Assembly (NCBI GenBank): GCA_945863885.1
Contig: CAMAZY010000029.1
Span: 1-32,843 of the forward strand
Direction: 5' to 3'
Origin: an uncultured Clostridia bacterium
GTDB lineage: Bacteria > Bacillota > Clostridia > Oscillospirales > Acutalibacteraceae
DNA length: 32,843 nucleotides
Shown: one piece after another, positions 10,070 to 31,602 of the stretch
Layout of the letters: each line of letters opens with the position of its first letter
Position numbering within the stretch: position 1 is the stretch's first letter
Translations under genes and position numbers: made by a program
The notes under the pieces: generated by a model
Seen by the model: only the letters and a program-made list of their open reading frames with translations
What the model was told of the DNA's origin: nothing
Databases searched by the model: none

Positions 10070-10098
10070 TTGACATATCCGGCAAATTTTGCTACTCT
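10070..10098 (+). promoter_or_regulatory. Promoter of the zinc-ribbon/TPR gene
   Basis: TTGACA (10070-10075), 17 bases, then TACTCT (10093-10098). The -35 is perfect and the -10 imperfect. Transcription would begin around 10105, leaving a very short leader that holds the AAGGAGG site and the ATG at 10122. Confidence 0.65.
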
Positions 10099-10121
10099 AT
10101 ATCAAAAAGGAGGTTGACATA

Positions 10122-11774
10122 ATGATTTGTCATAAATGCGGAAATGAAATCAGCGATACTGTTGATTTTTGTCCTTTTTGCGGGGGAAAATTCAATACAG
10201 ATACCCAAGCTTCGATAAAAACGAAAAACAAAAATGAAAAGAAAAAGATATCCAAATCTAAAAAAGCTATGATTTCCTTTCTTGTCGTACTCATTGTGTG
10301 TGTTGCGTCAGCAGCAGGCATAGGTATTCCATATCTTTCAAGCAACGAGTATAAAATCAATCAGGCGATGAATCAAGGCGATTACGACGAAGCCCTTTCC
10401 GTATATCAAGATAAGGCAGACGGAAAGCCAAGTAAACTGCTTGACCGTGTTCTGAAGAAACGGCTTTCAAAGCTGAAAACAAACTTTGAGAACGAATCCG
10501 TTGATTACAGCATGGCCTGCAAGGAACTTGATACAATCGAAAAAATGAAGTTAACTTCCGTTTCGCAGGACTTAAGCAACGTCAAAGACTATATTATAAA
10601 ACTCAACAAGTCAAGAACTTCGTTCCAATCGGCTGAAGAAATGTTTTCAAAAGGCGACTACGAGGGTGCCGTTTCAAAATACATGCAGGTTATCGAAACG
10701 GACAGAAACTTTGCAGCCGCGCAGGAAAGACTTTCGGAATCAAAAGCAAAGTTCAAAGAAGCAGTCTTAAGTAAATCCGCCGATTTTGCAAAAGAGGGGC
10801 GTTACATCGATGCGGTGGAAAAACTTGAAGCCGCCCTGAATATTCTTCCGGATGATGAAAGAATCACCGACCGACTGGCCGATTATCGAAAAAGCTACCG
10901 AACACAGGTCACAGAAAGAATCAAAGAAGAATTTCATGATAATACAGCATTCTTGAAAATAGAGGACTATGATTGTAACGGTCGTTATGAAGCCTTTGTC
11001 ATTACAGGCGTTCCGGGTGCAGTATTAGACAGTTATGATTCCTGCAAAATCTGGTTTGTTGATGATTCATTGAATTCTGTATTACTATCTGAGAGCAACG
11101 GCGTGATTCCGCACGAAATCATAACAGCTGAAAGCTATTCTTTTTTCAAATATGAAGTTTCAGCCGGTGGATCAGGCAGTGCTTCCTATCTGTTCGGTGT
11201 AAAAAATAATAAGCCTTATGAATTGGTGATATCGGGAAAGTTTATGGACTTTACAAACGAAGGCAACAAATATACGGCAATGACGAATGATTTCAGCAAC
11301 GGCTATCATGATTATATAACACACCATTTTGTTTTTGATAAAAAAGCATGTGAGTTTTATATCGAAGGCTATATCAACATCGGTGATTATTTAACCGATG
11401 ACGGATTTACGATAAAAGGAAAACAATTAGCGGATAAACTTTCCGGCATGACCTTCATCAAAGAAATCTGGAATTGTTACACTGATTCCAAAGCCACTTC
11501 AATCGAAGCAGAGAATAACGACGAAATTTTTCGAATGGAATGGGGTGGATACAATATCCTTTTATACAATCTTTCGGTAGGCAGCACCTATGCACAAGCT
11601 AAAAAAACCTTATCCGAAAAAGGATATCGTTATGATGAAAGTAATAGCAGACTGAGCACCAGAAGATTTACAAAAGGCAATATTTCTATTTGGATATACT
11701 TTCATTATGATATTCAATCCGTAAACGATGACACCCATATAGTCGAGTTTCAAATTGATCTGACTGAAAATTGA
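10122..11774 (+). CDS. Zinc-ribbon, TPR-like membrane protein of unknown function
   Basis: I do not recognise a specific function. The 550-residue product has an N-terminal zinc ribbon (C3, C6, C17, C20), a lysine-rich linker (31-48), one membrane helix (about 49-69), and then helical repeats of TPR character up to about residue 265 (MNQGDYDEALSVYQ, FSKGDYEGAVSKYMQVI, AKEGRYIDAVEKLEAALNILP). The C-terminal 280 residues are mostly beta-rich, aromatic and unassigned. Zinc-ribbon plus membrane helix plus periplasm-facing TPR is a frequent architecture in Clostridia, usually of unknown role. Start: ATG after AAGGAGG, chosen over an in-frame upstream codon before that site. The gene is clearly more AT-rich than polA and valS around it, which may mean separate origin. 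No clear terminator follows. Confidence 0.8.
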   Translation: MICHKCGNEISDTVDFCPFCGGKFNTDTQASIKTKNKNEKKKISKSKKAMISFLVVLIVCVASAAGIGIPYLSSNEYKINQAMNQGDYDEALSVYQDKADGKPSKLLDRVLKKRLSKLKTNFENESVDYSMACKELDTIEKMKLTSVSQDLSNVKDYIIKLNKSRTSFQSAEEMFSKGDYEGAVSKYMQVIETDRNFAAAQERLSESKAKFKEAVLSKSADFAKEGRYIDAVEKLEAALNILPDDERITDRLADYRKSYRTQVTERIKEEFHDNTAFLKIEDYDCNGRYEAFVITGVPGAVLDSYDSCKIWFVDDSLNSVLLSESNGVIPHEIITAESYSFFKYEVSAGGSGSASYLFGVKNNKPYELVISGKFMDFTNEGNKYTAMTNDFSNGYHDYITHHFVFDKKACEFYIEGYINIGDYLTDDGFTIKGKQLADKLSGMTFIKEIWNCYTDSKATSIEAENNDEIFRMEWGGYNILLYNLSVGSTYAQAKKTLSEKGYRYDESNSRLSTRRFTKGNISIWIYFHYDIQSVNDDTHIVEFQIDLTEN

Positions 11775-11848: not shown

Positions 11849-12079
11849 GATAAAACAAAACGGCGCTGAACAAGAGGAGTAACACTTCGATTTCTTACAG
11901 AGAAAAGGCGGTCGGTGCAAGCCTTGAAGAAATGATGTGTGAAGGTCGCTTGGAAGTCTCGGGAAGAACGGCTTTTGTGCCTATTAGACCCCGGAATAAA
12001 AGAGTGCGAAGCGAAAGCTTCGAATTCAGGTGGTACCGCGAAGTAACGCTTCGTCCTGATTACAGGGCGGAGCGTTTTT
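11849..12079 (+). ncRNA. T-box riboswitch, valine specifier
   Basis: Leader RNA that senses uncharged tRNA. Stem I is closed by CAAG (11871-11874) with CTTG; its specifier loop has AGTAA on the 5' side and GAAG-GTC-G on the 3' side, giving specifier GTC (Val) at 11945-11947. Stem III is GAAGC/GCTTC, followed by the T-box sequence GGTGGTACCGCG (12029-12040). The TGGT bulge pairs with a tRNA acceptor end carrying A73. The competing terminator is ACGCT..CCTG/CAGG..AGCGT at 12046-12075 followed by Ts. The codon agrees with the downstream gene, so this is also a control for reading the second T-box. Confidence 0.96.
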
Positions 12080-12115: not shown

Positions 12116-14737
12116 ATGGCAAAAGAACTTGCAAAACAGTACGATCCGAAAAACGTTGAAGATCGTATTTATCAGACCTGGCTTGACGGAAACTACTTCC
12201 ACGCCGAGCCGGACCCCGAAAAGAAACCGTATACCATCGTGATTCCCCCACCGAACATCACCGGTCAGCTTCACATGGGTCACGCCCTTGACAACACGCT
12301 TCAGGATATCCTGATCCGCTTCAGAAGAATGCAAGGCTACGACACCCTCTGGCTTCCCGGAACCGACCACGCTTCGATTGCAACCGAAGCAAAAATCGTT
12401 GCCGCCATGAAAGAAGAAGGCATCACGAAAGAGGACATCGGCCGTGAGGGCTTCTTAAAAAGAGCGTGGGAATGGAAAGCACAGTACGGCGGAAGAATTA
12501 TCGAGCAGCTTAAGAAAATGGGCTCCTCCTGCGACTGGGAAAGAGAACGCTTTACGCTTGACGAGGGCTGTTCGAAGGCCGTCCGTGAGGTTTTCTGTAA
12601 CCTCTATGAAAAGGGTCTGATTTACCGGGGCGAACGGATCATCAACTGGTGTACCCACTGTAAGACCTCCATTTCCGACGCCGAGGTTGAATACGAGGAG
12701 CACGACGGTAACTTCTGGCACTTCAAATATCCGTTCAAGGACGGAAGCGGCTCTATCGAGGTCGCAACCACCCGCCCCGAAACGATTCCCGGCGATACCG
12801 CCGTTGCCGTTCATCCCGACGACGAACGCTATAAGGACGTTATCGGAAAGACTGTTGTGATTCCCGTCATCGGACGTGAAATCCCGGTTGTTGCCGACAC
12901 GTACGCTAAAATGGATAAGGGAACCGGTGCGGTTAAAATTACCCCGGCGCACGACCCGAACGACTTTGAAGTAGGACTCAGAAACAACCTGCCGGTTATC
13001 AACGTCATGACCGACGACGGCTTCATGAACGAAAAAGCGGGCAAGTATGCCGGTATGAATCTCATGGAGTGCCGCAAGGCGATTGTCAAAGACCTGACGG
13101 ACGCCGGTGCCCTCGTAAAAATCGAACCAACCAAGCATGAGGTAGGCTCGTGCTACCGCTGTCACACGGTTGTTGAACCGAGAGTTTCCAAGCAGTGGTT
13201 CGTGAAGATGAAGCCGCTTGCCGAACCGGCCATCAAGGCGGTCAAGGACGGCAAGACGAAATTTATCCCCGAACGCTTCGACAAGATTTATTTCAACTGG
13301 ATGGAAAACATCCGTGACTGGTGTATCTCCCGTCAGCTTTGGTGGGGTCACCGGATTCCTGCCTGGTACTGCGAGGACTGCGGCGAAATCACCGTCAGCC
13401 GTGAAGACCCGACAAAGTGCTGTAAGTGCGGCAGTACCCACATCACGCAGGATCCCGATACACTCGACACCTGGTTTTCGTCCGCACTCTGGCCGTTTTC
13501 AACCCTCGGCTGGCCGGACAAGACCCCCGAGCTTGCGCATTATTACCCGACAAGCACGCTTGTAACGGGCTATGACATCATCTTCTTCTGGGTTGCGAGA
13601 ATGATTTTCTCCGCCTGCGAGCAGATGGGCGAGGTTCCGTTTGACACGGTCTTCATTCACGGTATCGTCCGTGACGAATTAGGCAGAAAGATGTCGAAGT
13701 CCTTGGGTAACGGTATTGATCCGCTGATCGTGATCGACAAATACGGCGCAGACGCTCTTCGTCTGACGCTTGCGACGGGCAACAGCCCCGGAAACGATAT
13801 GCGTTATTCCGAAAAGAAGGTTGAGGCAAGCCGCAACTTTGCCAACAAGATCTGGAACGCCGCACGTTTCATCCTGATGAACCTTGACGAAAACGAGCCG
13901 GCGCCGCATATCCCCGTCGAGCTTGCGCTCGAGGACAAGTGGGTACTGTCACTGTTCAACAAGCTCACGAAAGAGGTTACGGATAACCTCGAAAAGTTTG
14001 AACTCGGCATCGCCGTTTCGAAGCTTTACGACTTTATCTGGGATATTTTCTGCGACTGGTATATCGAGCTTGCGAAAATCAGACTTCAGCAAGGCGGAGA
14101 AAAGGCGGCACAGGTCAAGGCAGTTTTAGTTTACGTCATGAGCGAAACGCTCAAGCTTCTTCACCCGTTCATGCCGTTTATTACCGAAGAAATCTGGCAG
14201 ACGCTTCCGCACGAGGGCGAAACGATTATGAAAGCTCCGTGGCCGGTTTATAGCGAGAAGCTGATTTTTGACGAAGACGAAGCGAAGATGGAAATCATCA
14301 TGGAGGCAATCCGTGCCATCCGTAACCGCAGAGGTGAAATGAACGTTCCGCCGTCAAGAAAGGCGCACGTTTATATCGCAACCGACAAGACGGAGGAATT
14401 TGAGACGGCAACGGTCTTCATGCAGCGTCTTGCTTCCGCTTCCGATGTCACGGTCGGCGAAAGCTTCGACATTCCGAACGCCGTCAGCATCGTCACCGCC
14501 CACGCCAAGATTTATATCCCGATGGGCGACCTTGTTGACTTCGAAGCGGAAAGAAAAAGACTGACCAAGGAGAAGGAAAACGCCGAAAAGAAGCTTGCGC
14601 AGATTAACAACAAGCTTTCGAACCCGGGATTTTTGAGCAAGGCACCGCAGCAGGTCGTTGACGGTCAGAAAGCCGAAGCGGAAAAGCTCAGCGAAAAAAT
14701 CAAGATGATTGACGAAAGCCTTTCGCAGTTAGGTTAA
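12116..14737 (+). CDS. valS: Valyl-tRNA synthetase
   Basis: Class I aminoacyl-tRNA synthetase that charges tRNA-Val and edits misactivated threonine. The 873-residue length is normal. Visible are the HIGH-type motif HMGH (53-56) after PPPNITGQL, an editing (CP1) domain with [22 protein letters not shown], the [14 protein letters not shown] segment, a Zn-type cysteine group (CEDCG..CCKCG), the KMSKS motif at 525-529, an anticodon-binding region, and a C-terminal coiled coil from about 805 that is typical of ValRS. GGAG precedes the ATG. Expression is under the valine T-box, and a strong terminator follows, so it is monocistronic. Confidence 0.98.
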
Positions 14738-20558: not shown

Positions 20559-20903
20559 ATGAATATCAAAAAAGAACTCTCCAAGGGCAGTACCTCTTTG
20601 CTTGTACTTTCGGTGCTTGAAAGCGGCGATATGTACGGCTATCAGATCATCAAGGAAATCGAAGCCCGATCGGAATTTGTCTTTTCACTGAAAGAGGGCA
20701 CGCTCTACCCGATTCTGCACGCATTCGAAAAGGACGGCTATGTGACCTCGTACTGGATTGAAAACGAGTCCGCCCGCAAGAGAAAGTACTACCGCATCAC
20801 CGACAAGGGCATCAAGGCGCTTTCCAAAAACAAGGAGGAATGGACGTCCTATTCCTCGGCGGTCAACAAGGTCATCGGCAAGGTGTCCCACGCCAAGGCG
20901 TAA
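20559..20903 (+). CDS. PadR-family transcriptional regulator
   Basis: Winged-helix repressor of the PadR type. The 114 residues contain the family core: LLVLSVLESGDMYGYQIIKEIEARSEFVFSLKEGTLYPILHAFEKDGYVTSYW, then RKYYRITDKGIKAL; the C-terminal helix is the short dimerisation arm of the small (PadR-s2) type. GAGGTGAT precedes the ATG. The next gene starts 17 bases after its stop, so it is the first gene of a three-gene operon and very likely controls it through the palindrome at 20449-20480. The ligand or signal cannot be deduced. Confidence 0.95.
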   Translation: MNIKKELSKGSTSLLVLSVLESGDMYGYQIIKEIEARSEFVFSLKEGTLYPILHAFEKDGYVTSYWIENESARKRKYYRITDKGIKALSKNKEEWTSYSSAVNKVIGKVSHAKA

Positions 20904-20920
20904 AAGCGGAGGATAACATC

Positions 20921-22378
20921 ATGAGCAAACCGAAAATCGTTTCGGACTACCTTGAGGCCGCCGTGCCGAAAGGGCTTACGGCGTCCCGACGGAAGCTGCT
21001 TTCGGACGAGCTTGAAAGCCACATCTATGACAAAGCCGAGCACTATATCGAAATCGGCTATTCCGAAGAAGACAGCTTTGAAAAGGCAGTCGCCGAAATG
21101 GGCGATGCTGAAGCGGTCAACATACAGCTTGATGAGATTTACAAAGAGAACGGCAAACTTAAATTCACTCTTACAGCGGTCATTTTTCTTTCGTGTCTTC
21201 TGTTTACGCTGTGCACACCGATAGGTGCTGTCGCTCCTATTAAGACCTATGCGCCGCCGTTTTACGCTCTGCTTTCATTCGTTCTATATTTTGCCCTCAT
21301 CACATGGATCGTTGTCTGCTACCGAAGAAAAGCGGAAAAAACGCTCAAAGCTGTCGGGATAATCACCTCGGTAACAGCCATTCCCTGTATGCCGCTACTT
21401 CTTAAGCCGTTTGCCGATGCCGTTCAGTATAATATTTCGTTTCTGATTGAAAAAATTTTTCACACGCCGTTTGAAAGCTTCCGGGTTTTCGACACAGTCG
21501 GTACCGTTTCCCTCATTTTTTATTTTGCGGCCATTCTTTCAATACCGGTTTTAAGCTTCGTCCTGCTGTTACACCTGAGAAGCGGAAAAAGCGCCGGGCA
21601 TAAACCGAAAACAGCAAGAATGATTTACGTTTTTGCCGCCATTACGGTTCTCATGACCGCCGTGTACTGGCAGGCAACGGATTATTACGGATATCAGAAG
21701 ATTGTCAGCATCGACCAGTTATATACATATTATGACGGTCAGGACAGCAATTGGGAAAAAGAAAAAGAGAAAATGATCGGCGTGCTTGATGATTACCGAA
21801 AAATCCGCCCGGGTCAGGATGCCGATGAAATCAACCGGACATTACTCGAAAAGGGATATAAGTCCGTCAGCTATGACGATTTCGAAGAAAATTACAGCGA
21901 CAATTTTTTCAGCACTGAATCGAAAAATGTCATTGAATACTACAAAAGCGACAACGGAATGGTACGGGAAACAATCCGTTTTCCCGACACCCCGAACCCT
22001 ATGCGAAAAAGTCTGGATACCGTTACGCCCGATTACATGATCTGTTATGTTGACAACTGCTTTGAATATATCAAATCTCTCCGGATCGGTGCAAACGAAG
22101 AGGAGACCGTCAACCGTCTTTTTGATTTTGACTGTGTACTTAGTTCTGTCAAAACCCGGTGTTCGGAACATGGTGAACAATCCGAATACACCTTCTTTGC
22201 TAGCAAGGCGGCTGTGAAAAAGCCGAAGCCGCTGTCAAGATTCTTCATTTTAGATGTTGGACGTGATGTATCAACACACCTGACGGTCCGTTTCGAATTT
22301 AAGAACGAAAAACTGACCGATGCTTCGGTCAGCGGTGACAACTACTATCTCTACGAACTGACATCTCCCAAAAGTTAA
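20921..22378 (+). CDS. PadR-linked membrane protein with DUF1700-like N-terminus (paralogue 1)
   Basis: Unknown function. The N-terminal about 60 residues (KPKIVSDYLEAAVPKGLTASRRKLLSDELESHIYDKAEHYIEIGYSEEDSFEKAVAEMGDAEAV) resemble the helical prefix seen in DUF1700 and permease-prefix proteins that accompany PadR regulators in Firmicutes. About six membrane segments follow (roughly 78-260). The C-terminal half (about 285-485) is soluble, probably outside the membrane, and contains a segment with RPGQDADEINRTLLEKGYKSVSYDDF, like proteins that use a small lipoprotein-style fold. The 485-residue start was set at 20921, after GGAGG; a frame starting inside padR was rejected. Paired with the next gene, whose N-terminus is nearly identical. 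Confidence 0.8.
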   Translation: MSKPKIVSDYLEAAVPKGLTASRRKLLSDELESHIYDKAEHYIEIGYSEEDSFEKAVAEMGDAEAVNIQLDEIYKENGKLKFTLTAVIFLSCLLFTLCTPIGAVAPIKTYAPPFYALLSFVLYFALITWIVVCYRRKAEKTLKAVGIITSVTAIPCMPLLLKPFADAVQYNISFLIEKIFHTPFESFRVFDTVGTVSLIFYFAAILSIPVLSFVLLLHLRSGKSAGHKPKTARMIYVFAAITVLMTAVYWQATDYYGYQKIVSIDQLYTYYDGQDSNWEKEKEKMIGVLDDYRKIRPGQDADEINRTLLEKGYKSVSYDDFEENYSDNFFSTESKNVIEYYKSDNGMVRETIRFPDTPNPMRKSLDTVTPDYMICYVDNCFEYIKSLRIGANEEETVNRLFDFDCVLSSVKTRCSEHGEQSEYTFFASKAAVKKPKPLSRFFILDVGRDVSTHLTVRFEFKNEKLTDASVSGDNYYLYELTSPKS

Positions 22379-22390
22379 GGAGTGAAACAA

Positions 22391-23896
22391 ATGCCAAAAC
22401 CGAAAATCGTTTCGAACTATCTTGAAGCCGCCGTCCCGAAAGGGCTGTCAGCGTCTAGACGGAAACTGCTCATGGACGAGCTTGAAAGCCACATCTTCGA
22501 CAAAGCCGGGCACTATATCGAAATCGGCTATTCGGAGGAAGAAAGCTTCCTAAAAGCGGTTGCCGAAATGGGCGACGCCGAAGCGGTAAGCGAAAGCTTC
22601 CGCAAGCTCTATAAGGAGAGCCACGCCGTCAATATTCTTATCATGGTTCTTCTTCTCGGTATCAATGCCGTCACCTCATACTACAACCTTGGCGGCAATA
22701 TGGCAGAATCCATGCCCGACCCGAACTTTTTGATTGTCATGCTCAGTCTCAGCTATTTCTCCGCCACGGTGCTTCTGATGAAATACGCCTACGGGAAAAA
22801 ACAGACAAACAAGCTTGCCGCTGTCGGGGCTTCGATGCTGATAATCAGCATACCGTCGTTTTTCATCGGTACGGTTTTCGTGCCCGGCGGTTACGCTGTA
22901 ACAGAAAATCTGCTTTTCATGCTCGAAAAACTCACCGGGACGGATTGTATGAATCGGTTTGAAAACCATTTCACGATTCCGTATATCCTTTTCACCCTCG
23001 GGACGCCCGTTATTCTGTCCGTCATCAGCTTTATCCTGTCAGTTAAAAGCATCTGCTATGAATCGGAAAAGCGTTTTTGGCTCCCCTCTTTGGGACTTAC
23101 CGCCACAGCGGTCATTCTCGTCCTATTTACGTTCACCAATGCCGTTATTTATCCCTTTGCAAGAGAATATCAATATGATCGTATTCTTTCCGATCAGTAT
23201 GAAATCAATCAGAAAGAATCCGAGCAAAGGACTCTGTATAAAATCTTTTCGAAAATCCAAAAAGGCGACAGCCGGAACAGCGTCGAGCCGCTTTTCAAAA
23301 AAGCTGAAATGCTTGCTTCCGATAAATTTCTGGATATGCTTGAGCAGGAATATACCGATTATGTCCGCAATACGGTCGAAAAAAGAATCAACAAACAACT
23401 TCAGGGCAAGCGGAACGCACAGATATACTTTTTCATAACCGATGACAAATATAGCTATTTTCAAGAACCGCCTGAGAATTTTATCCTCGTTGAATTTGAC
23501 AAAAACGGCAAGGTTATCGGAAAAGAAATCAGCGTGGAAGCCATAGCCGGAGAAACCGACCCCGACGGTCTTGCTTTTTACTGTGAACGGCTGAAGCCCG
23601 GCATGACGAAACAGGAAGCCGCCGACATTCTGTCCTCCCCCGCCTGCGAAAAAGTTTTTGAGGCGATATACTACAAGGGCGATACCGTCACCGAAGTGCA
23701 AAGCTATTTTGCCCAAGTAGAAAAGCATAACAGAACCGTTTTCGGCGTACCTCTTCCTTATGATTTAGGCGGTGAAAGTCGCCGGGAAACCTTTCAGGCG
23801 ACACTTGTTTTCGAAAACGGTATTCTGAAAGAGCCGCCCGAAACCAAAGACACGGACGATATAGCAAACGAAATGTCCGAATACGATTCCGACTGA
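22391..23896 (+). CDS. PadR-linked membrane protein with DUF1700-like N-terminus (paralogue 2)
   Basis: Tandem paralogue of the preceding gene. Residues 1-65 differ from it at few positions, while the rest diverges strongly. The 501-residue product has about six membrane segments (roughly 75-265) and a soluble C-terminal half with GMTKQEAADILSSPACEKVFEA near 420, of the kind found in SmpA/BamE-like small domains (a weak resemblance). Function unknown. The ATG at 22391 lies 8 bases after AAGGAG; an in-frame GTG at 22382 overlaps that site. It starts 12 bases after paralogue 1 ends. A strong bidirectional terminator follows. Confidence 0.8.
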   Translation: MPKPKIVSNYLEAAVPKGLSASRRKLLMDELESHIFDKAGHYIEIGYSEEESFLKAVAEMGDAEAVSESFRKLYKESHAVNILIMVLLLGINAVTSYYNLGGNMAESMPDPNFLIVMLSLSYFSATVLLMKYAYGKKQTNKLAAVGASMLIISIPSFFIGTVFVPGGYAVTENLLFMLEKLTGTDCMNRFENHFTIPYILFTLGTPVILSVISFILSVKSICYESEKRFWLPSLGLTATAVILVLFTFTNAVIYPFAREYQYDRILSDQYEINQKESEQRTLYKIFSKIQKGDSRNSVEPLFKKAEMLASDKFLDMLEQEYTDYVRNTVEKRINKQLQGKRNAQIYFFITDDKYSYFQEPPENFILVEFDKNGKVIGKEISVEAIAGETDPDGLAFYCERLKPGMTKQEAADILSSPACEKVFEAIYYKGDTVTEVQSYFAQVEKHNRTVFGVPLPYDLGGESRRETFQATLVFENGILKEPPETKDTDDIANEMSEYDSD

Positions 23897-23996: not shown

Positions 23997-25061
23997 TTAT
24001 ACGGTGACTCTCCAGCCTCTTTTGTCTTCTCTTTCGCCCCACTGAATACCCGTCAGCTCGTCGTAAAGCTTCTGGGTAAGCTCGCCGATGGAGCCGTCGC
24101 CGATATTCATCACGTCGTCCTCATAGCGAAGCTTGTTGACCGGGGAAACAACGGCGGCCGTACCGGTTCCGAATACTTCCTCAAGTGTACCGTCCTTGGC
24201 GGCGGCAACAAGCTCGTCAACGGAAATTCTTCTTTCCTCGACCTCGTAGCCCCAGTCACGGCAAACCTGTAAAATAGAGTTTCTTGTGATACCCGGGAGA
24301 ATACTGCCGTTAAGCATCGGGGTGACAACCTTGCCGGAAATCTTGAAGCAGATGTTCATCGCGCCGACTTCCTCGATGTACTTTCTTTCGACACCGTCAA
24401 GCCAGAGTACCTGAGAATAGCCGCTGTCGTGCGCCTTAACCTGTGCAATCAGGCTTGCGGCATAGTTGCCACCGGTTTTCGCAAAACCCATTCCGCCCTT
24501 TACGGCACGGACATATTCGTCCTCAATCCAGATACCGACCGGCTCAAGTCCGCTTTCGTAGTATGCGCCCGACGGGGAAAGGATAACCATGAAAAGATAC
24601 GTCTTGGACGGCGCAACGCCTAAGAAAGCGTCGGTTGCGATAACGAACGGACGGATATAAAGCGAGGTGCCGGGGTCGGAAGGTACCCAGTCACGATCCA
24701 CGTCAACGACCGCCTTGACCGCTTCGACAAACATGTCCTCGGGAATTTCGGGAATACAAAGTCTCTGATTCGACTGATTGGCTCTTTTGGCGTTCATGTC
24801 GGGACGGAAAAGATAAATCGTGTCGTCCTTTCCTCTGTATGCCTTCATGCCCTCGAACATGGACTGACCGTAATGGAAAACCATGGCGCTCGGCTCGATG
24901 GAGATTTCGCCGTAGGGTACGATTCTCGGGTCATGCCAGCCCTTGCCCTCGGTGTAGTTCATGACAAACATATGGTCGGTAAAAATGTGACCGAAGCCTA
25001 AAGGCTGACCTTTTTCGGGCTTCTTCTTGGGATTGGTCGTTTTGGTGATTTTGATATCCAT
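23997..25061 (-). CDS. ilvE: Branched-chain amino acid aminotransferase
   Basis: PLP-dependent class IV transaminase that interconverts isoleucine, valine and leucine with their 2-oxoacids, using glutamate/2-oxoglutarate. The 354 residues are of the longer, eukaryote-like group (PALRPN..MNYTEGKGWHDPRI start region), with the PLP lysine at K195 in FAKTGGNY, the YIEEVGAMNICF segment and PGITRNSIL near 270-278. The start was placed at 25061: its ATG follows GGAGG by 8 bases, and this removes an overlap with the preceding gene. It is the last gene of the operon, 19 bases after the oxidoreductase gamma subunit. Being co-transcribed with a 2-oxoacid oxidoreductase and an acyl-CoA synthetase suggests it performs the final step of making an amino acid from a branched acid. 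Confidence 0.95.
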   Translation of the reverse strand: MDIKITKTTNPKKKPEKGQPLGFGHIFTDHMFVMNYTEGKGWHDPRIVPYGEISIEPSAMVFHYGQSMFEGMKAYRGKDDTIYLFRPDMNAKRANQSNQRLCIPEIPEDMFVEAVKAVVDVDRDWVPSDPGTSLYIRPFVIATDAFLGVAPSKTYLFMVILSPSGAYYESGLEPVGIWIEDEYVRAVKGGMGFAKTGGNYAASLIAQVKAHDSGYSQVLWLDGVERKYIEEVGAMNICFKISGKVVTPMLNGSILPGITRNSILQVCRDWGYEVEERRISVDELVAAAKDGTLEEVFGTGTAAVVSPVNKLRYEDDVMNIGDGSIGELTQKLYDELTGIQWGEREDKRGWRVTV

Positions 25062-25080
25062 ATCATTAACCTCCGTTATA

Positions 25081-25617
25081 TTATTCGAAATTGTATCCGG
25101 CTTCAACCGCCTTGAGGTTCACGTCGAAAAGCTCAGCCTTTCTCGGCGGAATCACCTTTTTAAGCGACTGCTCGGCGTTTTTTATGCCCATGTCCTCATA
25201 AACGGCAATCAGCTTACCCATGAGAATCATGTTCGCAAGACTGCCGAAGCCGCCGTCTCTTGCCATTTTGGTAGCCGGGACGTAGTAAACCGTTACGTCG
25301 TCACGGTCAACCGTTTCGTCAATCAGCGTGGAGTCAAGAATGATGACACCGCCGGGGACGACATCGTATTCGTACTTTCTAAGCGACGGAAGATTCATCG
25401 CAACAAGACAGTCGGGCTTATCAATAATCGGGGAACCGATCGGCTCATCGCTTAAAATGACGTTGCAGTTCGCCGTACCGCCTCTCATTTCCGGGCCGTA
25501 GGACGGAAGCCAGCTGACCTGACGGTCTTCGATAAGCCCTTTATTTGCAAGAAACTTTCCGGCGAAAAGGACACCCTGTCCGCCGAAGCCGGCAATCAGA
25601 ATCTGTGTTGTGCTCAT
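25081..25617 (-). CDS. 2-oxoacid:ferredoxin oxidoreductase, gamma subunit
   Basis: The small (178-residue) gamma subunit of a VOR/KOR-type enzyme, which with alpha, beta and ferredoxin-like delta subunits interconverts a 2-oxoacid plus CoA with an acyl-CoA plus CO2, exchanging electrons with ferredoxin. The N-terminus [21 protein letters not shown], then [29 protein letters not shown], is the hallmark of the family. The start overlaps the stop of the beta subunit gene by 4 bases (ATGA), indicating translational coupling. Substrate range cannot be read from this subunit. Confidence 0.95.
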
Positions 25618-26369
25618 GCCTCTTCCTCCTTTTTCGCCGAACGGTCTTTATACACGCCCAAGGGATAATAAGGAAGCATATTGTCCTCGAGCCATTTCAT
25701 CGCCTTGTCAGGCGTCAAGCCCCAGTTTGTCGGGCAGGTCGAAACAACCTCGACAAGTGAAAAGCCCTTATTGTCAAGTTGATTCTGAAAAGCCTTTTTG
25801 ATTGCTTTTTTTGCGTTTCGGACGTTCTTGACGTTGTTGACCGTAACTCTTTCGAGATATTCCGGGCCGTCAAGCGTTGAGAGAAGCTCACAGATACGGA
25901 TCGGAAAACCGCACTGCTTGACATCTCTGCCGTAAGGAGAGGTCTGCGTAATCTGACCGGGAAGAGACGTCGGCGCCATCTGACCGCCCGTCATGCCGTA
26001 GATGGCATTGTTGACAAAAATGACGGTGATGTTTTCGTTTCTTGTTGCGGCGTGAACGGTTTCCGCCATACCGATCGAAGCAAGGTCGCCGTCACCCTGA
26101 TAGGTGAAAACAACGTTTTCGGGGTCGGAGCGCTTGATGCCGGTTGCGACGGCGGGTGCTCTTCCGTGAGCGGCTTCGACCATATCAAACGTAAAATAAT
26201 TGTACGCCATAACCGAGCAGCCGACCGGCGCAATACCGATTGTCTTGCCCTCAATTCCGAGCTCGTCTACGACCTCGGCGACAAGGCGGTGAATGATACC
26301 GTGCGTACAGCCGGGGCAGTAATGAAGCGGCACATCAACAAGTGATTTCGGTCTGTCAAATACTACCAT
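25614..26369 (-). CDS. 2-oxoacid:ferredoxin oxidoreductase, beta (TPP-binding) subunit
   Basis: Subunit that binds thiamine pyrophosphate and catalyses decarboxylation or carboxylation. The 251 residues show the CPGC motif at 18-21, the TPP/Mg motif beginning GDGD at 92-95 and closing NN at 120-121, and [11 protein letters not shown]. Length fits KOR/VOR enzymes whose Fe-S domain is a separate protein. The ATG overlaps the alpha-subunit stop by one base (TAATG) and has GGAGG in front. Among four-subunit enzymes the best comparison is with 2-oxoisovalerate and 2-oxoglutarate oxidoreductases; the operon context favours branched-chain 2-oxoacids. Confidence 0.95.
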
Positions 26370-27433
26370 TATTTGTCGCCTCCTTCGTTTGCCTTTTTAA
26401 TTGCGTCAAGCACTTCGGCCGGGGACGGAATCATACCGCCGACACGGTTACAGAGCGTGACGGGTCTTGTGCAGCGGATGGCAAGCTCAACATCCTCAAT
26501 AAGCTGACCCATGGAAAGCTCAACGGAGATGAAGTGCTTTGCGGTTTTCGCCGCTTCAAAAAAGTCCTTTTTCGGGAACGGCCAAAGAGTGATCGGTCTT
26601 ATCATACCGACCTTGATGTCCTGCTTTCTCGCTTCGACAATCGCATTTTTTGCAACTCTTGCGGCGATACCGAAAGCGGCGACGATAATGTCCGCATCCT
26701 CGGTCATGAACTTTTCGCACATCGGCTCGTTTTCTTCTATGATTTTATACTTTTCGTACCGTGCAAAATTCTGCTTTTCCAATTCATCGGGAACAAGCGT
26801 CAGGGAATTGATAATGTTATGTTCTCTTTGCATTTTCGTGCCCGTAACCGCCCACGACTTGTCGTAGTCGGGTGTTTTGACTTCGGACAGCTCAACCGGC
26901 TCCATCATCTGACCCATCGTACCGTCGGCAAGAATCATCGACGTGATTCTGTACTTGTCGGCAAGGTCGAAGCCCTTGATCGTAAGGCTTGCCATTTCCT
27001 GAACGGAGGCCGGAGCCAACACAATCATGTGATAGTCACCGTGTCCGCCGCCTCTTGTCGCCTGGAAGTAATCCGACTGGCTCGGCTGAATACCGCCAAG
27101 TCCCGGACCGCCTCTTTCGACATTGACCACAAAAGCGGGCAAATCACAGCCGGCAAGATAGGAAAGTCCCTCGCTCTTAAGTGAAATTCCCGGGCTTGAC
27201 GAGGAGGTCATGACCCTCTTACCGGTCGCAGCGACGCCGTAAACCATATTGATTGCGGCGACCTCGCTTTCCGCCTGTAAAAATGTTCCGCCGATTTTCG
27301 GCATTCTTTTCGCCATATAGGCGGCAATTTCTGTCTGCGGTGTTATCGGATAGCCGAAGTAATGGCGGCAGCCGGCAAGAATAGCGGCTTCGGCGATTGC
27401 TTCGTTTCCTTTCATCAGTACCTTTTCAGCCAT
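26369..27433 (-). CDS. 2-oxoacid:ferredoxin oxidoreductase, alpha subunit (VorB/KorA-like)
   Basis: Large (354-residue) alpha subunit of the complex, comprising the pyrimidine-binding domain and the transketolase C-terminal-like domain. Typical segments are [30 protein letters not shown] at the N-terminus, [43 protein letters not shown] (about 54-96), [30 protein letters not shown], and [11 protein letters not shown]. This is the form usually labelled VorB, 3-methyl-2-oxobutanoate dehydrogenase, but such labels are not proof of substrate. A GGAG site precedes the ATG, 12 bases after the ferredoxin stop. Confidence 0.95.
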
Positions 27434-27445
27434 TTTTTCAGCTCC

Positions 27446-27652
27446 TTATTTTTCAACTTTAATCACACAGTCGGGACACATCGTTGCGCAGAAAGCGCAG
27501 GCGATACATTGACTTTCATCGCTCATCGCCGCCGGGGAATGTCCCTTTTCGTTAAGCCTGTCCTTATCGATATATAACAAATGCTTCGGGCAGGCACTTA
27601 CGCAAAGACCGCAGCCCTTGCATAATTCCGTTCTGAACGTAACTTTTGCCAT
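27446..27652 (-). CDS. 2-oxoacid oxidoreductase delta subunit, 2[4Fe-4S] ferredoxin
   Basis: A 68-residue ferredoxin-like protein with two Cx2Cx2Cx3C clusters: C11, C14, C17, C21 and C49, C52, C55, C59 (a further Cys at 62). In VOR/KOR complexes this subunit carries electrons between the TPP site and free ferredoxin. The ATG at 27652 has no close ribosome-binding site; the nearest AGGAGG (27699-27694) is about 40 bases upstream, and a strong hairpin occupies the space between. An in-frame stop lies upstream, so the start cannot move far. Confidence 0.92.
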   Translation of the reverse strand: MAKVTFRTELCKGCGLCVSACPKHLLYIDKDRLNEKGHSPAAMSDESQCIACAFCATMCPDCVIKVEK

Positions 27653-27662
27653 AGTTTTTGCG

Positions 27663-27699
27663 TCACCGTCAGGCTGTCAAGCCTTCGGTGAAGCCTCCT
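27663..27699 (-). promoter_or_regulatory. Hairpin between the Shine-Dalgarno and the ferredoxin start
   Basis: On the minus strand AGGAGG (27699-27694) is followed after 2 bases by TCACCG-A-AGGCT-loop-AGCCT-GA-CGGTGA (27691-27663), an 11-bp stem with a small internal asymmetry; the ATG is 10 bases beyond. When folded, the stem would bring the ribosome-binding site to about 12 bases from the start. No U-run follows, so a terminator is unlikely. Confidence 0.6.
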
Positions 27700-27714
27700 T
27701 TCTTTTCGTATAAA

Positions 27715-28392
27715 CTACGCATTGAAATCGTAGTATTTCTTCTGAAGCGTCAGTGGAAAAATCTCGCCCTGACAACCGTCAAGTTCTTCGCACAGGCTTT
27801 CGACTGCGCTCGTCATAATAACCGGAAGACCGCAAAGAGCCGAAAGCTCCCTTGCTTTTTCGTCCGATTTCATGATGTCTTCGGCGGTCGTTTCGTTTCC
27901 GAGGTTCGAGTTGTTGGCGATTGCGGTAAACGGAAGTCCGCTCGCCTTTTCAATCTCTAATAGTATATTGTAAGCCTCTTTTGCCGCTCTTGTCAACGGT
28001 CTGAAGAAATTTGCGACAAAAAACATCTGGAAATTATTCTCTTCCCGGATTTTTTCGCTGAGTCTACCGAGTGCTACCGCTCCGCTGTCGTCGCCGCCGA
28101 CATCAATCACGGCATAGGTGCTTTTGTCCTCGACCGTGCGGTACATACTCGCCGGAAGAGCCGGGATATCAAGGTTCGAGTTCGCATACGGGGAGCAGAT
28201 CAGCCCGATACCGAGGTCTTTTAGCTCCTGCTCGCTGTCCTTAGTGCGAAAATAGGGGTTGACGATATCGAGGTCGGCAATCACAACGCTTTTGCCTTCT
28301 TGTTTCAGCTTCTTTGCGTAGTTTACCGCAAGGTTCGTTTTGCCGCTGCCGTAATGGCCGCAAAAAAGCGTAATTCGTTTTGTCTCTTTCAT
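27715..28392 (-). CDS. ParA/MinD-like P-loop ATPase
   Basis: A 225-residue P-loop NTPase of the SIMIBI (ParA/MinD/NifH-like) group. The Walker A loop is GHYGSGKTN at 12-20 with K18, and DLDIVNPYFR (about 40-49) follows as in CobQ/MinD-like proteins; VIDVGGDDSG near 95-104 fits Walker B. There is no membrane-targeting helix or DNA-binding domain visible. It begins one base after the stop of the acyl-CoA synthetase gene and sits inside the oxidoreductase operon, so it likely serves that pathway, perhaps in assembly or metal-cluster handling; this role is a guess. Nothing suggests plasmid partition. Confidence 0.85.
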   Translation of the reverse strand: MKETKRITLFCGHYGSGKTNLAVNYAKKLKQEGKSVVIADLDIVNPYFRTKDSEQELKDLGIGLICSPYANSNLDIPALPASMYRTVEDKSTYAVIDVGGDDSGAVALGRLSEKIREENNFQMFFVANFFRPLTRAAKEAYNILLEIEKASGLPFTAIANNSNLGNETTAEDIMKSDEKARELSALCGLPVIMTSAVESLCEELDGCQGEIFPLTLQKKYYDFNA

Positions 28393-28393
28393 A

Positions 28394-30664
28394 TTAAAGC
28401 TTGTTTCTCATAATCTTGCCGCTGATGGTCTTCGGAAGCTCATCACGGAATTCAACAATTCTCGGGTATTTATACGGAGCGGTGTGCTTTTTGACGTAGG
28501 TCTGGATTTCCTTTTTCAGCTCCTCCGTACCCTCGGTGCCCTTGGTCAGCACGATGCTCGCCTTGACAACCTGTCCTCTGACCTCATCGGGAGCCGCAGA
28601 AACGCCGCACTCGAGAACATAGGGAAGCTCCATGATAACGTTTTCAATCTCGAACGGTCCGATGCGGTAGCCTGAGGACTTGATAACGTCGTCAATACGG
28701 CTGACGTACCAGAAATAGCCGTCCTCGTCACGGTAGGCGACGTCGCCCGTGTGATACATACCATCGTGGTGCGCTTCGTATGTCTTTTCTTCGTCACGGT
28801 AGTAGCCCATGAACAGTCCGCACGGGTCACCCTTGTCGGTTCTGACGACGATTTCGCCCGACTCACCCGTTGCAACGGGATTGCCGGCGGTGTCAACAAG
28901 GTCGATATCGTAGGTCGGTACCGCCTTGCCCATGGCGCCCGGCTTCGGTGTTGTGCCGACAAGGTTCGCAATCGTCAGCGTGGTTTCGGTCTGACCGAAG
29001 CCCTCCATGATCGTAAGGCCGGTCGCCTTTTTGAACTGATAGAATACTTCGGGATTCAGCGCCTCACCGGCGGTTGTTGCGTACTTGATCGAAGAAAGAT
29101 CATAAGCGGAAAGATCTTCTTTGATGAACATTCTGTACATCGTCGGCGGTGCGCAGAAGGTGGTGATGTTGTATTTCTTGAACATCGGAAGAATCTTATC
29201 GGCGTGGAAGCGGTCAAAGTCATAGGTGAAGACAGCGCCCTCACACATCCACTGACCGTACAGCTTGCCCCAGAGAGCCTTGCCCCAGCCGGTGTCGGAA
29301 ATCGTGAAGTGAAGTCCGTCGGAATGGACGCAGTGCCAGTACTTGGCGGTGATATAGTGACCGAGTGCGTATTTATAGTTGTGCTCGGCAATTTTCGGGT
29401 AGCCGGTTGTGCCGGAGGTAAAGAACATCAGCATCGGGTCGCTTCCGCAGGCGGTGTCCTCCGTTCTCGGGAAGATGCTCCGGAAAAGCTTGTATTCTTC
29501 GTCGAAGTTGTGCCAGCCCTCACGATCGGCACCAACCATAATTTTCACCTGAAGCGTTTCGCTCTTTTCGGCGGCAAGGTCAACCTGATGAGCGGTGTCG
29601 TCAGCCGATGTGCAGACGATTGCCTTAACGCCGGCGGCGTTGAAGCGGTATTCGAAGTCATGCTCCAAAAGCTGATGCGTGGCGGGAATCGCAACGGCTC
29701 CGAGCTTATGAAGCGCAAGAATCGTAAACCAGAACTGATAATGACGCTTTAAAACGACCATAACACGGTCACCTTTAGAAATGCCAAGGGATTTGAAGTA
29801 GTTCGCCGCTCTTGCGGATTCCTTTTTCATGTCCTCGAAGCTGAAACGCCGCTCGGTCATATCATCGGAAATATGAAGCATTGCGAGCTTGTTCGGCTCC
29901 TTTTCGGCGATAGCGTCAACAACGTCATAAGCGAAGTTGAACTGTTCAACGTTCTTGAAGTCGAGGGACAGCAGTCTTCCCTGCTCGTCCTCTTTTGCGT
30001 CGATGAACTTCTTGATAACGAAATCGTCAACCTTTCTTGCCGAAACGATGCTTTCCTTGATTTCCTTTTCGTCAACTTTTTCGTCACCGGGAATAACAAC
30101 AGCAAGGAAAAGACAGTCCTTTTCGCCGACAGCAATCATACCGTGAGGAGTTGAACTCTTATAATAGATACTGTCGCCCTCGTGAAGCACTTCGGTGTGG
30201 TCGCCGACTCTTACTTTCAAAGAGCCCTCCAAAACAAGGTCAAATTCCTGACCGCTGTGCGTCGTAGTATGAATCGGCTTATTCTGAAGCTCATCGGAGT
30301 ATTCATATTTAACCCAGTAAGGCTCGGCAAGTTTGTTGCGGAAAAGCGGAGCAAGGTTGCTGATTTCGATACCGGTCTCCTTGGCGGTACGGATACCCTC
30401 GCCCTTTCTTGTAACAGCATAGGACGAAAGCGATGCACTGTGACCCTCAAGAATATCGGTAATACCGATTCCGAAAGCGAGGGCGCATTTATGGATAAAC
30501 GTGAACGGAAGATCGACCGTGCCCGACTCATACGCCTTGTATTCGTCAACGGTCAGGTTCGTTTTTTCTGCCATTTCTTCGGCATGAAGTCCGGCAATTT
30601 CACGCATTTCACGGATTCTTGCCGCAACCTCCATAACTTCATTGGGAACATTTTTGTTGTTCAT
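28394..30664 (-). CDS. XRE-cupin / acyl-CoA synthetase (AMP-binding) fusion protein
   Basis: A 756-residue fusion. Residues about 16-70 form an XRE-type helix-turn-helix (AARIREMREIAGLHAEEMAEKTNLTVDEYKAYESGT); about 125-195 form a cupin with H132, H136 and E140 and a STPHG segment near 172-176; about 245-756 form an acyl-CoA synthetase. The latter has the ATP loop TSGTTGYPK (416-424), GFGQTETT, YHTGDVAYRDEDGYFWYVSRIDDVIKSSGYRIGP, and the acyl-transfer lysine in PKTISGKIMR (K750). The enzyme would activate a short or branched carboxylic acid to its CoA ester with ATP. GGAGG precedes the ATG at 30664 by 8 bases. It is the first gene behind the T-box leader. The same domain pair HTH-cupin normally forms stand-alone regulators, so the protein may sense its substrate or regulate as well as catalyse. 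Confidence 0.93.
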   Translation of the reverse strand: MNNKNVPNEVMEVAARIREMREIAGLHAEEMAEKTNLTVDEYKAYESGTVDLPFTFIHKCALAFGIGITDILEGHSASLSSYAVTRKGEGIRTAKETGIEISNLAPLFRNKLAEPYWVKYEYSDELQNKPIHTTTHSGQEFDLVLEGSLKVRVGDHTEVLHEGDSIYYKSSTPHGMIAVGEKDCLFLAVVIPGDEKVDEKEIKESIVSARKVDDFVIKKFIDAKEDEQGRLLSLDFKNVEQFNFAYDVVDAIAEKEPNKLAMLHISDDMTERRFSFEDMKKESARAANYFKSLGISKGDRVMVVLKRHYQFWFTILALHKLGAVAIPATHQLLEHDFEYRFNAAGVKAIVCTSADDTAHQVDLAAEKSETLQVKIMVGADREGWHNFDEEYKLFRSIFPRTEDTACGSDPMLMFFTSGTTGYPKIAEHNYKYALGHYITAKYWHCVHSDGLHFTISDTGWGKALWGKLYGQWMCEGAVFTYDFDRFHADKILPMFKKYNITTFCAPPTMYRMFIKEDLSAYDLSSIKYATTAGEALNPEVFYQFKKATGLTIMEGFGQTETTLTIANLVGTTPKPGAMGKAVPTYDIDLVDTAGNPVATGESGEIVVRTDKGDPCGLFMGYYRDEEKTYEAHHDGMYHTGDVAYRDEDGYFWYVSRIDDVIKSSGYRIGPFEIENVIMELPYVLECGVSAAPDEVRGQVVKASIVLTKGTEGTEELKKEIQTYVKKHTAPYKYPRIVEFRDELPKTISGKIMRNKL

Positions 30665-30698
30665 TGTTGTTACCTCCGACATTATTATTGACAACCGA

Positions 30699-30994
30699 TA
30701 AAAAGAAAAACCCGTCTCAAGTAATCTTGAGACGAGCAGTTATAAACTTACCCGCGGTACCACTCAAATTGCAACAGAAACTGTTGCCGCTCTCGGACTC
30801 CGACAAGCCCTATGCATTAACGCAGCAGTCACGGAAGGCATCTACTAAGCAAACAGCTTTTCGAACCTCCGGCTCGGAAGTGATAGGAACTGAAGCTCAT
30901 TTCTGCCGGGCTTACACCAAATTCCCGACTCGCTGAAAGACTGTCCGCTTCGTCCGTCTTCGTCATCGCCTTTTTCATATTCGATTGTCTGATT
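30699..30994 (-). ncRNA. T-box riboswitch, probable isoleucine specifier
   Basis: Minus-strand leader between the promoter and the acyl-CoA synthetase gene. The antiterminator carries GAGTGGTACCGCGG (30765-30752), preceded by stem III GCAACAG/CTGTTGC (30771-30787). The terminator is CGTCTCAAG/CTTGAGACG (30713-30734) followed by GGTTTTTC. In Stem I the distal helix GTCGGG/CCCGGC is clear. The specifier region reads CCT-ATC-ACTTCCGAG; the usual context (codon followed by ACTCC) points to ATC, Ile, at 30884-30882. The TGGT bulge suits A73 of tRNA-Ile. I could not draw the specifier-loop helices unambiguously, so the codon is less sure than the T-box itself. Confidence 0.92.
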
Positions 30995-31000
30995 GTTATT

Positions 31001-31029
31001 ACTCTATCACTTAAAAGGACGGTTGTCAA
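31001..31029 (-). promoter_or_regulatory. Promoter of the T-box/acyl-CoA synthetase operon
   Basis: Perfect TTGACA (31029-31024), 17-base spacer and TAGAGT (31006-31001) on the minus strand. It begins only 12 bases after the stop of the ANTAR gene, with no terminator between, so read-through from upstream is possible. Confidence 0.8.
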
Positions 31030-31041
31030 CCCTTTTTTGAC

Positions 31042-31575
31042 TTATTTCAAAAATCTTTTCGCCGCCTCGACCATACTGATTCCTGAATTCATGCTATACC
31101 GCTGTAGAAGTTTATGGGCATCCCCCTCGGGGATTTCTCTTTCTGCCATAATTTTCCTCTTAGCCTTTTCAATAAGCTCGGTTTCCTCTTTCGGGCGGAC
31201 ACCTTTTGCGGTCGTTTTGGCGGCAAAGGTGCTGTTCATACTGCCCGCAACGGAAACAACGGTTTCACAAAGCTCAAGCCTTGTCACGGGAAGATTGACG
31301 GGGGTGACGTTACTGACATAATACGGAAACGGCTGTTCACTCGTCAGAAGCAGAATCATATCCCAGCTATCCGGCATGATTTTCGAAAGGTAAATCGACG
31401 GCAAGTCCCTGAGCGTGGCACAAATCAGCACTGCGTCCTCAATATCCGACCAGAGAGACTGTACCTCACTTGCACTTGTGCAGCTTGCACAAGCCGAAAG
31501 TCCGGAAGATTCCAGCATTTTTTCAAGCGTCGCCGTAAGCTTTTTGCTGCTTGAGGCAATCACAATATTTCTCAA
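31042..31575 (-). CDS. ANTAR-domain antitermination regulator with degenerate receiver
   Basis: A 177-residue protein with an N-terminal receiver-like domain (about 1-110) and a C-terminal ANTAR RNA-binding domain (about 125-177; ETELIEKAKRKIMAEREIPEGDAHKLLQRYSMNSGISMVEAAKRFL). ANTAR proteins bind paired hexaloop hairpins in leader RNAs and prevent termination. The receiver lacks the acidic pair (IVIASSSKK in place of a DD motif) and the phosphorylatable Asp (DAVLICATLRD), so it is unlikely to be phosphorylated. A TTG start at 31575 is preferred: it is 8 bases after GGGAGG, while the GTG at 31584 overlaps that site. It follows the HPr gene but is separated from it by a terminator, and no independent promoter is seen. 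Confidence 0.88.
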   Translation of the reverse strand: MRNIVIASSSKKLTATLEKMLESSGLSACASCTSASEVQSLWSDIEDAVLICATLRDLPSIYLSKIMPDSWDMILLLTSEQPFPYYVSNVTPVNLPVTRLELCETVVSVAGSMNSTFAAKTTAKGVRPKEETELIEKAKRKIMAEREIPEGDAHKLLQRYSMNSGISMVEAAKRFLK

Positions 31576-31602
31576 TGCCGTCACCTCCCGATATAAAATG
31601 AA

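Follow-up and report, generated by a model that had tools for sequence, protein, structure and literature searches.

A seven-gene operon on the reverse strand of contig CAMAZY010000029.1, from an uncultured bacterium of the Acutalibacteraceae (the window, all 32,843 nucleotides of the stretch analysed), stands behind a T-box leader of the isoleucine type, and the operon very likely serves to salvage isoleucine from 2-methylbutyrate, being switched on under isoleucine starvation. It encodes an acyl-CoA ligase (ACS1), a P-loop ATPase, the subunits of a 2-oxoacid:ferredoxin oxidoreductase (VOR) and a branched-chain amino acid aminotransferase (BCAT) (Table 1). T-boxes and the 2-methylbutyrate route to isoleucine are known separately; their combination appears to be new. 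This reading joins what was computed (the T-box, its amino acid, the gene set, its retention in relatives and the valine specificity of a sister gene) to what we infer from it (the ligase substrate, the direction of VOR, the uptake of the acid and the switch itself).

The leader resembles isoleucine-class T-boxes of RF00230 in having a stem I with a specifier, AGAGA/GGTG-type apical parts, a TGGN bulge (here TGGT) in the antiterminator and a competing terminator. The initial annotation, made from the letters alone, had placed a T-box before the operon, with its motif, bulge, ATC specifier and terminator; the first three of these are correct to the base, and Rfam bears out the T-box itself. The E-value in Table 1 comes from a scan of a 1-kb piece, and the search of the window's own genome gave E 3.5e-19. 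At 85.7 bits the leader lies below the RF00230 gathering score of 93 and does not qualify as a member at that level, which is why it is absent from the Rfam list of the whole window. Among seven orthologous isoleucine leaders scanned, four reach the gathering score (L042, 109 bits; L027, 103.3; L131, 95; L040, 93.2) and those of loci L022, L029 and L072 score below it. Both-side changes were found at 10 of 14 predicted stem I pairs across 43 leaders, for example at columns 23-95 (AU 15, UA 14, CG 8) and 6-112 (GC 19, AU 15). The E-values together with conservation in relatives exclude a chance match. The specifier loop of the window's stem I seems compact, being flanked by covarying pairs (columns 21-97, 22-96 and 23-95) and having no AGUA element, unlike the valS leader of the same window, in which this element is present; the compact loop may lie behind the low score. 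Promoter-like pairs similar to that of the window stand in many of the printed relatives (by eye). A gene for an ANTAR-domain (antiterminator) protein (31042-31584, reverse strand) stops 12 bases ahead of the promoter-like sequence.

The specifier was read by a positional rule, as the three bases that are parted by one spacer base from the beginning of the right-hand strand of the lower helix of stem I. There are 12 strong T-boxes in the genome to which the window belongs, including the window leader, and the codon matches the downstream open reading frame (ORF) at 10 of the 11 others: Leu before leuA, Val before valS, Asn before asnB, Phe before a pheS-like gene, Trp before genes for a TrpX-like binding protein and a TrpB-like protein, Cys before serine acetyltransferase, Thr before a thrS-like gene, Ala before an alaS-like gene, and Ile before ilvA. 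These readings were made by eye with the genes already known (seven named by profile, four by eye), the downstream gene being the longest ORF within about 1.5 kb, which begins 712 bases away in the case of the Cys T-box. The eleventh T-box reads GAC (Asp) before a hisS-like gene and fits only if aspS comes next, and the alaS-like leader permits a second specifier frame. A blind script of the rule agreed at 8 of 12 leaders, missing the TrpX-like, cysE-like, hisS-like and alaS-like ones. The ilvA gene (G000:C13, locus L008) is preceded by a second ATC T-box with the same layout as the window leader.

Homologous leaders give the same codon. Anchored without use of the codon itself, 73 of 73 read ATC, and ATC was read by eye in L091, making 74 of 74 readable leaders; the specifier of the window leader is thus supported as isoleucine, the amino acid of the predicted downstream pathway, as the initial annotation had proposed. 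A serine specifier (TCN) was considered and rejected. Among 73 leaders, ATC is followed by A in 34, C in 34, G in 4 and T in 1, a variation that taken by itself is also compatible with TCN, but the positional rule fits the other T-boxes of the genome, the ilvA leader reads ATC, and the sister set described below has GTA or GTC at that place.

Seven close-packed ORFs follow the leader on the same strand, and the gene set assigned to them by the initial annotation holds up against ORF, Pfam and NCBIfam data. The acyl-CoA synthetase of that set proves to be a fusion with HTH (XRE-type) and cupin domains; its start codon is ATG at 30664-30662. The beta, gamma and delta subunits score below the cut-offs of PorB_KorB (119.7 bits against 261.9), PorC_KorC (68.1 against 81.1) and PorD_KorD (37.6 against 60.05), notwithstanding which they exceed those of Pfam TPP_enzyme_C, POR and Fer4. 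The operon BCAT is the only match to the type II family (TIGR01123) in its genome.

The best sequence match of ACS1 in the PDB is 3etc (634.7 bits; the next match has 348.9), which is also the best fold match of its AlphaFold model (used for fold only; mean pLDDT 80.2, below 50 at, for example, residues 417-419, 461-463 and 659-668). This structure is MacsMa of Methanosarcina acetivorans (PDB 3ETC), an enzyme that prefers 2-methylbutyrate according to the available part of PMC10455477. Within the aligned part, no offset other than 23 places both a Lys at 256, as in the title of 3etc, and a Trp at 259, as in the same part of PMC10455477, so MacsMa Trp259 corresponds to W464 of the window; an equation of Trp259 with W442 was dropped on this alignment. 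Window residues W442, W459, K461, W464, C503 and G556 align with the MacsMa pocket and are identical in all 113 ligases compared (75 with Ile and 38 with Val labels, see below). MacsMa differs in being an archaeal chain of 580 residues with no HTH-cupin part. Further pocket positions are taken to be W237, W254, C298 and G351 in MacsMa and V310, T311, V386 and W414 in the acetyl-CoA synthetase Acs; a literature search for Acs pocket residues found nothing. From the likeness to 3etc, the pocket residues and the isoleucine T-box, ACS1 is a putative 2-methylbutyryl-CoA synthetase.

Loci encoding a relative of the ligase number 586, and the best 80 of these, mostly from metagenome assemblies and many of ruminant or other animal origin, were taken as near relatives. 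A T-box core lies within 700 nucleotides upstream of ACS1 in 75 of the 80; one of these loci, L048, begins inside the leader, which leaves its specifier unreadable. The comparison of leaders that the initial annotation had suggested as a check thus supports it, with a core in 75 of 80 loci and ATC in every readable leader. Two of the five loci without a core (L026 and L084) begin too close to a contig end, and the others are L067, L073 and L088, of which L073 and L088 have a third ligase upstream of ACS1; in all five, a core precedes the next gene, at a distance of 2.5 to 2.7 kb. In L067, a seemingly decayed core (GGGTGGTATTATGG) is present about 150 nucleotides before ACS1. In 50 of the 80 loci the ligase gene is followed on its own strand by those for the ATPase, ferredoxin and VorB, and in 30 by all six downstream genes. 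One relative also has a THF riboswitch (L040:1233-1333).

In many relatives, ACS1 is separated from the VOR genes by a second fusion ligase (ACS2), which shares about 54 to 67% identity with that of the window; the window's genome has ACS1 only. The leader of ACS2 has a valine specifier in 41 of 44 records (the script gives GTA in 37 and GTC in 3, and L072 was read as GTC by eye), the other records being L038, L055 and a fragment in L019. ACS2 leaders score above the RF00230 gathering score in L022, L042 and L072, and a promoter-like pair was seen by eye in all 14 that were printed; at L042:10325-10572, for example, a Val T-box with its own promoter-like sequence lies between the ligase genes. 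The ACS2 of L042 has the HTH, cupin and AMP-binding domains of Pfam. The VOR genes behind the Val T-box may need valine starvation or read-through.

In a tree of 119 ligases, one branch (SH-aLRT 99) parts 81 rows (75 with an Ile T-box, 6 with none seen) from 38 rows (36 with a Val T-box, 2 with none), with no crossover. Between the 75 Ile-labelled and the 38 Val-labelled ligases, 31 columns share fewer than 12% of residues, of which 26 are in the HTH-cupin part (residues 1-216) and 5 in the ligase (p 2e-10 for this contrast). The HTH-cupin part, where the Ile and Val ligases differ most, is tentatively regarded as a probable additional sensor, which might respond to the acid or to its CoA ester. 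At residue 460, there is Gly in 74 of 75 Ile ligases and Ala in 38 of 38 Val ligases. This residue adjoins that matching MacsMa Lys256 and is aligned with Val310 of E. coli Acs, presumably an acyl-pocket residue. The same division holds in an order-level sample that has species in common with the near-relative set, with Gly460 and an Ile T-box in 38 of 38 cases (33 by script; L165, L166, L168, L169 and L179 by eye) and Ala460 and a Val T-box in 16 of 16 (15 by script, L176 by eye). One of these, L153, is a ligase only 43% identical that has Ala460 with a Val T-box, its specifier being backed by the Rfam alignment. Gly in Ile ligases and Ala in Val ligases is the direction that a change of substrate from 2-methylbutyrate to isobutyrate would call for, since one extra methyl in the enzyme offsets one CH2 fewer in the acid. 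The chance that one of the five ligase-domain differences should hit a pocket of about five residues was estimated as one in twenty, and the predicted role of the pocket gains further weight from the fit in size and from the Val ligase at 43% identity.

The genome of the window encodes leuA-ilvB-ilvN-ilvC-ilvD-leuC-leuD-leuB behind a Leu T-box, in addition to ilvA behind its Ile T-box, so that salvage would be a parallel supply in this bacterium. Its relatives are mostly different. Of 147 genomes in the order-level sample, 101 have a ligase homologue at E 1e-150, and 70 count as having ilvC (E 1e-50 or better). The ilvC gene is absent in 35 of the 42 genomes observed to have a T-boxed ligase, versus 42 of the 105 others (Fisher p 1.4e-6, uncorrected for kinship and only indicative, as the genomes are incomplete and related and those with weaker ligase matches were only partly checked for T-boxes). 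Prior to the addition of three late-found T-boxes, the corresponding figures were 32 of 39 and 45 of 108. Absence of ilvA (by TIGR01127 only) is noted in 37 of 42 genomes with a T-boxed ligase versus 58 of 105 others. Thus, most of the carriers seen to have a T-boxed ligase cannot use the usual branched-chain route, yet they retain the genes for salvage. By having ilvC, the window's genome departs from this majority.

A mechanism may be proposed in which uncharged tRNA-Ile accumulates during isoleucine starvation and binds the leader by pairing at both the ATC specifier and the TGGT bulge, whereupon the antiterminator would form and the operon be read. Taken up from other anaerobes, 2-methylbutyrate would be converted by ACS1 to 2-methylbutyryl-CoA, with ATP spent to AMP. 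Using reduced ferredoxin, VOR would carboxylate this ester to 3-methyl-2-oxopentanoate, from which the aminotransferase would make isoleucine. In the window's genome, BCAT probably both serves this salvage and finishes de novo synthesis. The assimilatory direction is favoured because the ligase spends ATP to AMP and because control by starvation suits making an amino acid rather than breaking it down. The assimilatory salvage proposed by the initial annotation gains support from the 3etc-like ligase, the Val T-boxes on sister ligases and the scarcity of ilvC among carriers of a T-boxed ligase.

Other functions can be imagined for the same genes. In a catabolic operon, BCAT and VOR would yield energy by oxidising isoleucine to 2-methylbutyryl-CoA, and the presence of the ligase would be incidental; enzymes of these types do serve amino acid fermentation in anaerobes. 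Such an operon would, however, be induced on starvation for the very amino acid that it degrades, and with an AMP-forming ligase that costs ATP, an amino acid-specific T-box on each ligase paralogue and ilvC missing in most carriers seen, a catabolic role is very improbable. It is scarcely credible that ACS1 and VOR should instead supply 2-methylbutyryl-CoA to FabH as a lipid primer when the isoleucine-derived keto acid is short. A precedent is MbcS of S. aureus, which activates 2-methylbutyrate and isobutyrate for lipid synthesis (available part of PMC10026030), and MbcS is the top NCBIfam match of ACS1. On this explanation, however, VOR and BCAT would be superfluous in the operon, the loss of ilvC deprives many carriers of their usual route to branched-chain amino acids, and a Trp T-box on genes for indolepyruvate:ferredoxin oxidoreductase (IOR) with an arylacetate-CoA ligase-like gene (two loci, described below) suggests the same logic without a lipid role.

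An unlikely but less remote alternative is a broad branched-chain operon that serves all three amino acids, by salvage and, through BCAT, by de novo synthesis, with isoleucine as a mere signal. In its favour are the single type II BCAT of the genome and the single VOR cluster behind both ACS1 and ACS2 in relatives; the separate Ile and Val ligases with their Gly/Ala pocket difference favour acid-specific entry instead, and the window's genome has only ACS1.

Several observations weigh against isoleucine salvage under isoleucine control. The genome is able to make isoleucine de novo, and since its sole type II BCAT is in the operon, control of the operon touches that route also. VOR enzymes can run oxidatively, and the match of ACS1 to MbcS (NF047394), at 440.1 bits, is far under the equivalog cut-off of 850. 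No uptake gene is among the seven genes of the operon, and no tRNA-Ile was seen among the 30 examined of 39 tRNA hits. Among the near loci, 3 of 80 (L067, L073 and L088) have no T-box core directly before ACS1, VorB was not seen downstream on the ligase strand in 30 of 80 (partly owing to contig ends), and L080 is the sole exception among the 75 Ile-labelled ligases in having Ala at residue 460. Many distant ligase homologues lack a T-box, and a permissive Rfam scan of ten order-level loci called empty (L137, L139, L148, L150, L165, L166, L167, L168, L189 and L212) found none before the ligase in seven (in L167 a T-box lies behind the ligase, and six have none). Homologous operons without any T-box, which the initial annotation had named as evidence that would tell against it, are thus mostly not the case among near relatives, and occur in part at three near loci and at many distant ligases.

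The three other loci of the permissive scan (L165, L166 and L168) have divergent T-boxes directly before the ligase (61.1, 72.2 and 50 bits, respectively), with ATC by eye and ligases with Gly at 460; thus, the core pattern undercounts. Although the TACCGCG side that is usual in the antiterminator has been lost from these three T-boxes, they still precede the ligase. Of the first 40 order-level loci, 5 (L131, L144, L153, L169 and L170) have a core in the neighbourhood of the ligase, as do 35 of 40 drawn from the strongest matches. VOR genes are beside the ligase in 4 of 35 first-batch loci without a core. A scan of 12 other first-batch loci at gathering level, a threshold that the window leader itself would fail, found no T-box. 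The absence of a T-box from part of the ligase family is real at the permissive level; among the loci without one are L189 (68% identity) and L212 (61%, one of four loci of one genus). In L144, the HTH-cupin and ligase (Gly at 460) are separate genes behind an Ile T-box. The HTH-cupin is a separate adjacent gene in some distant homologues (L144, L145 and L146).

A similar arrangement is found for two more amino acids. Several relatives (e.g., L039, L027 and L060) have a leuA-like gene and a third ligase, in which a xylose isomerase-like TIM barrel is fused to an AMP-binding domain, and all 12 of the printed T-boxes ahead of these genes read CTC or CTG (Leu) by eye. The two leuA-like genes that were scanned fall below LeuA cut-offs; as a guess, the substrate of the third ligase could be isovalerate. 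An IOR match is present in 51 of 79 genomes, and a scan of 30 IOR loci found a T-box ahead of IOR in 2, both reading Trp by the helix rule by eye (the Rfam alignment shows the UGG stretch and leaves the frame unsettled) and both from one family of genomes. No IOR beta subunit was identified in L243. The combination of a Trp T-box with IOR and a ligase-like gene suggests salvage of indoleacetate to tryptophan. The IOR cluster of the window's own genome (L245, G000:C5) is beside two acyl/aryl-CoA ligases, one of them PaaK-like, and has no T-box core.

The Leu and Trp cases point the same way as the Ile and Val ones, with a specifier that names the amino acid rebuilt from its acid. It is fairly likely that T-box specifiers label a modular acid-to-amino-acid salvage in gut Clostridia, comprising ligases for Ile from 2-methylbutyrate, Val from isobutyrate, Leu from isovalerate (beside a leuA-like gene) and Trp from arylacetate (beside IOR), with VOR and BCAT shared, the HTH-cupin part on the first two and Gly or Ala setting the substrate, and that such salvage is the main supply in carriers without ilvC and the basis of isoacid dependence.

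Reductive carboxylation of 2-methylbutyrate to isoleucine was proposed for the rumen methanogen Methanobrevibacter ruminantium in PMC2812497, which cites Robinson and Allison (1969) for rumen bacteria, the route having been known since the 1960s; the pathway is the same as that proposed here, and the available part of that paper describes no control. Isoacids serve as feed additives (excerpts of PMC10311502), and the portions of the isoacid literature consulted name neither genes nor control for the 2-methylbutyrate route in these bacteria. T-boxes and ferredoxin oxidoreductase are both mentioned in PMC5171806, PMC2700814, PMC5640608 and PMC9045289, the first of which has a T-box on trp. A literature search found no paper that joins T-box control with these genes; an earlier mention is possible, as T-box surveys and the supplement of PMC3766115 lay outside the search. 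The window T-box differs from others of RF00230 in that its predicted target is an isoacid-salvage operon in place of a gene for a synthetase, for de novo synthesis or for uptake, which would add carboxylic-acid salvage to the functions under T-box control. If acid-activating genes each bear a switch that names the amino acid served, then substrate, direction and purpose may be read from DNA, and isoacid dependence becomes a gene-level prediction for uncultured gut bacteria, offering a genetic explanation of the use of, or need for, branched-chain acids in many gut anaerobes.

Table 1. Features of the window and of related loci (window coordinates unless a locus is named)
Feature	Position	Strand	Basis or remark
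Promoter-like sequence: TTGACA (31029-31024), 17 nt spacing, TAGAGT (31006-31001)	31001..31029	-	By eye
T-box leader, isoleucine type	30725..30975	-	RF00230, 85.7 bits, E 5.8e-19; stem I covariation
Specifier codon ATC (Ile)	30882..30884	-	Sequence; homologous leaders
T-box/antiterminator motif GAGTGGTACCGCGG, TGGT bulge at 30762-30759	30752..30765	-	Sequence and Rfam
Intrinsic terminator: hairpin 30736-30711, T-run 30710-30701	30701..30736	-	By eye
ACS1: HTH (XRE), cupin and AMP-forming acyl-CoA ligase fusion	28394..30664	-	Pfam HTH_3, Cupin_2, AMP-binding
P-loop ATPase, CbiA/MinD type	27715..28392	-	Pfam CbiA, 28.7 bits (cut-off 25.4)
2x[4Fe-4S] ferredoxin-like delta subunit	27446..27652	-	Above Pfam Fer4 cut-off; below PorD_KorD cut-off
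VorB, 2-oxoacid:ferredoxin oxidoreductase alpha subunit	26369..27433	-	NF005507, 535.6 bits (above cut-off of 399)
VorA, thiamine-diphosphate beta subunit	25614..26369	-	Pfam TPP_enzyme_C
VorG, gamma subunit	25081..25617	-	Pfam POR
Branched-chain amino acid aminotransferase, IlvE type II	23997..25061	-	TIGR01123, 416.1 bits (above cut-off of 250.05)
Second T-box of the window, specifier GTC, next base G; precedes valS (12116-14737)	11857-12061	+	Rfam, 111 bits
Divergent Ile-type T-box	L165:10237-10015	-	Permissive Rfam scan
Divergent Ile-type T-box	L166:3123-3345		Permissive Rfam scan
Divergent Ile-type T-box	L168:3194-3354		Permissive Rfam scan
Trp-type T-box before IOR	L243:8566-8340	-	Phenylacetate-CoA ligase-like gene downstream
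Trp-type T-box before IOR	L244:179-422	+	Phenylacetate-CoA ligase-like gene downstream

Elsewhere in the window, on the forward strand, there are large ORFs at 20840-22378 and 22382-23896 with no family match in Pfam, and another at 10089-11774 with no family match in NCBIfam.

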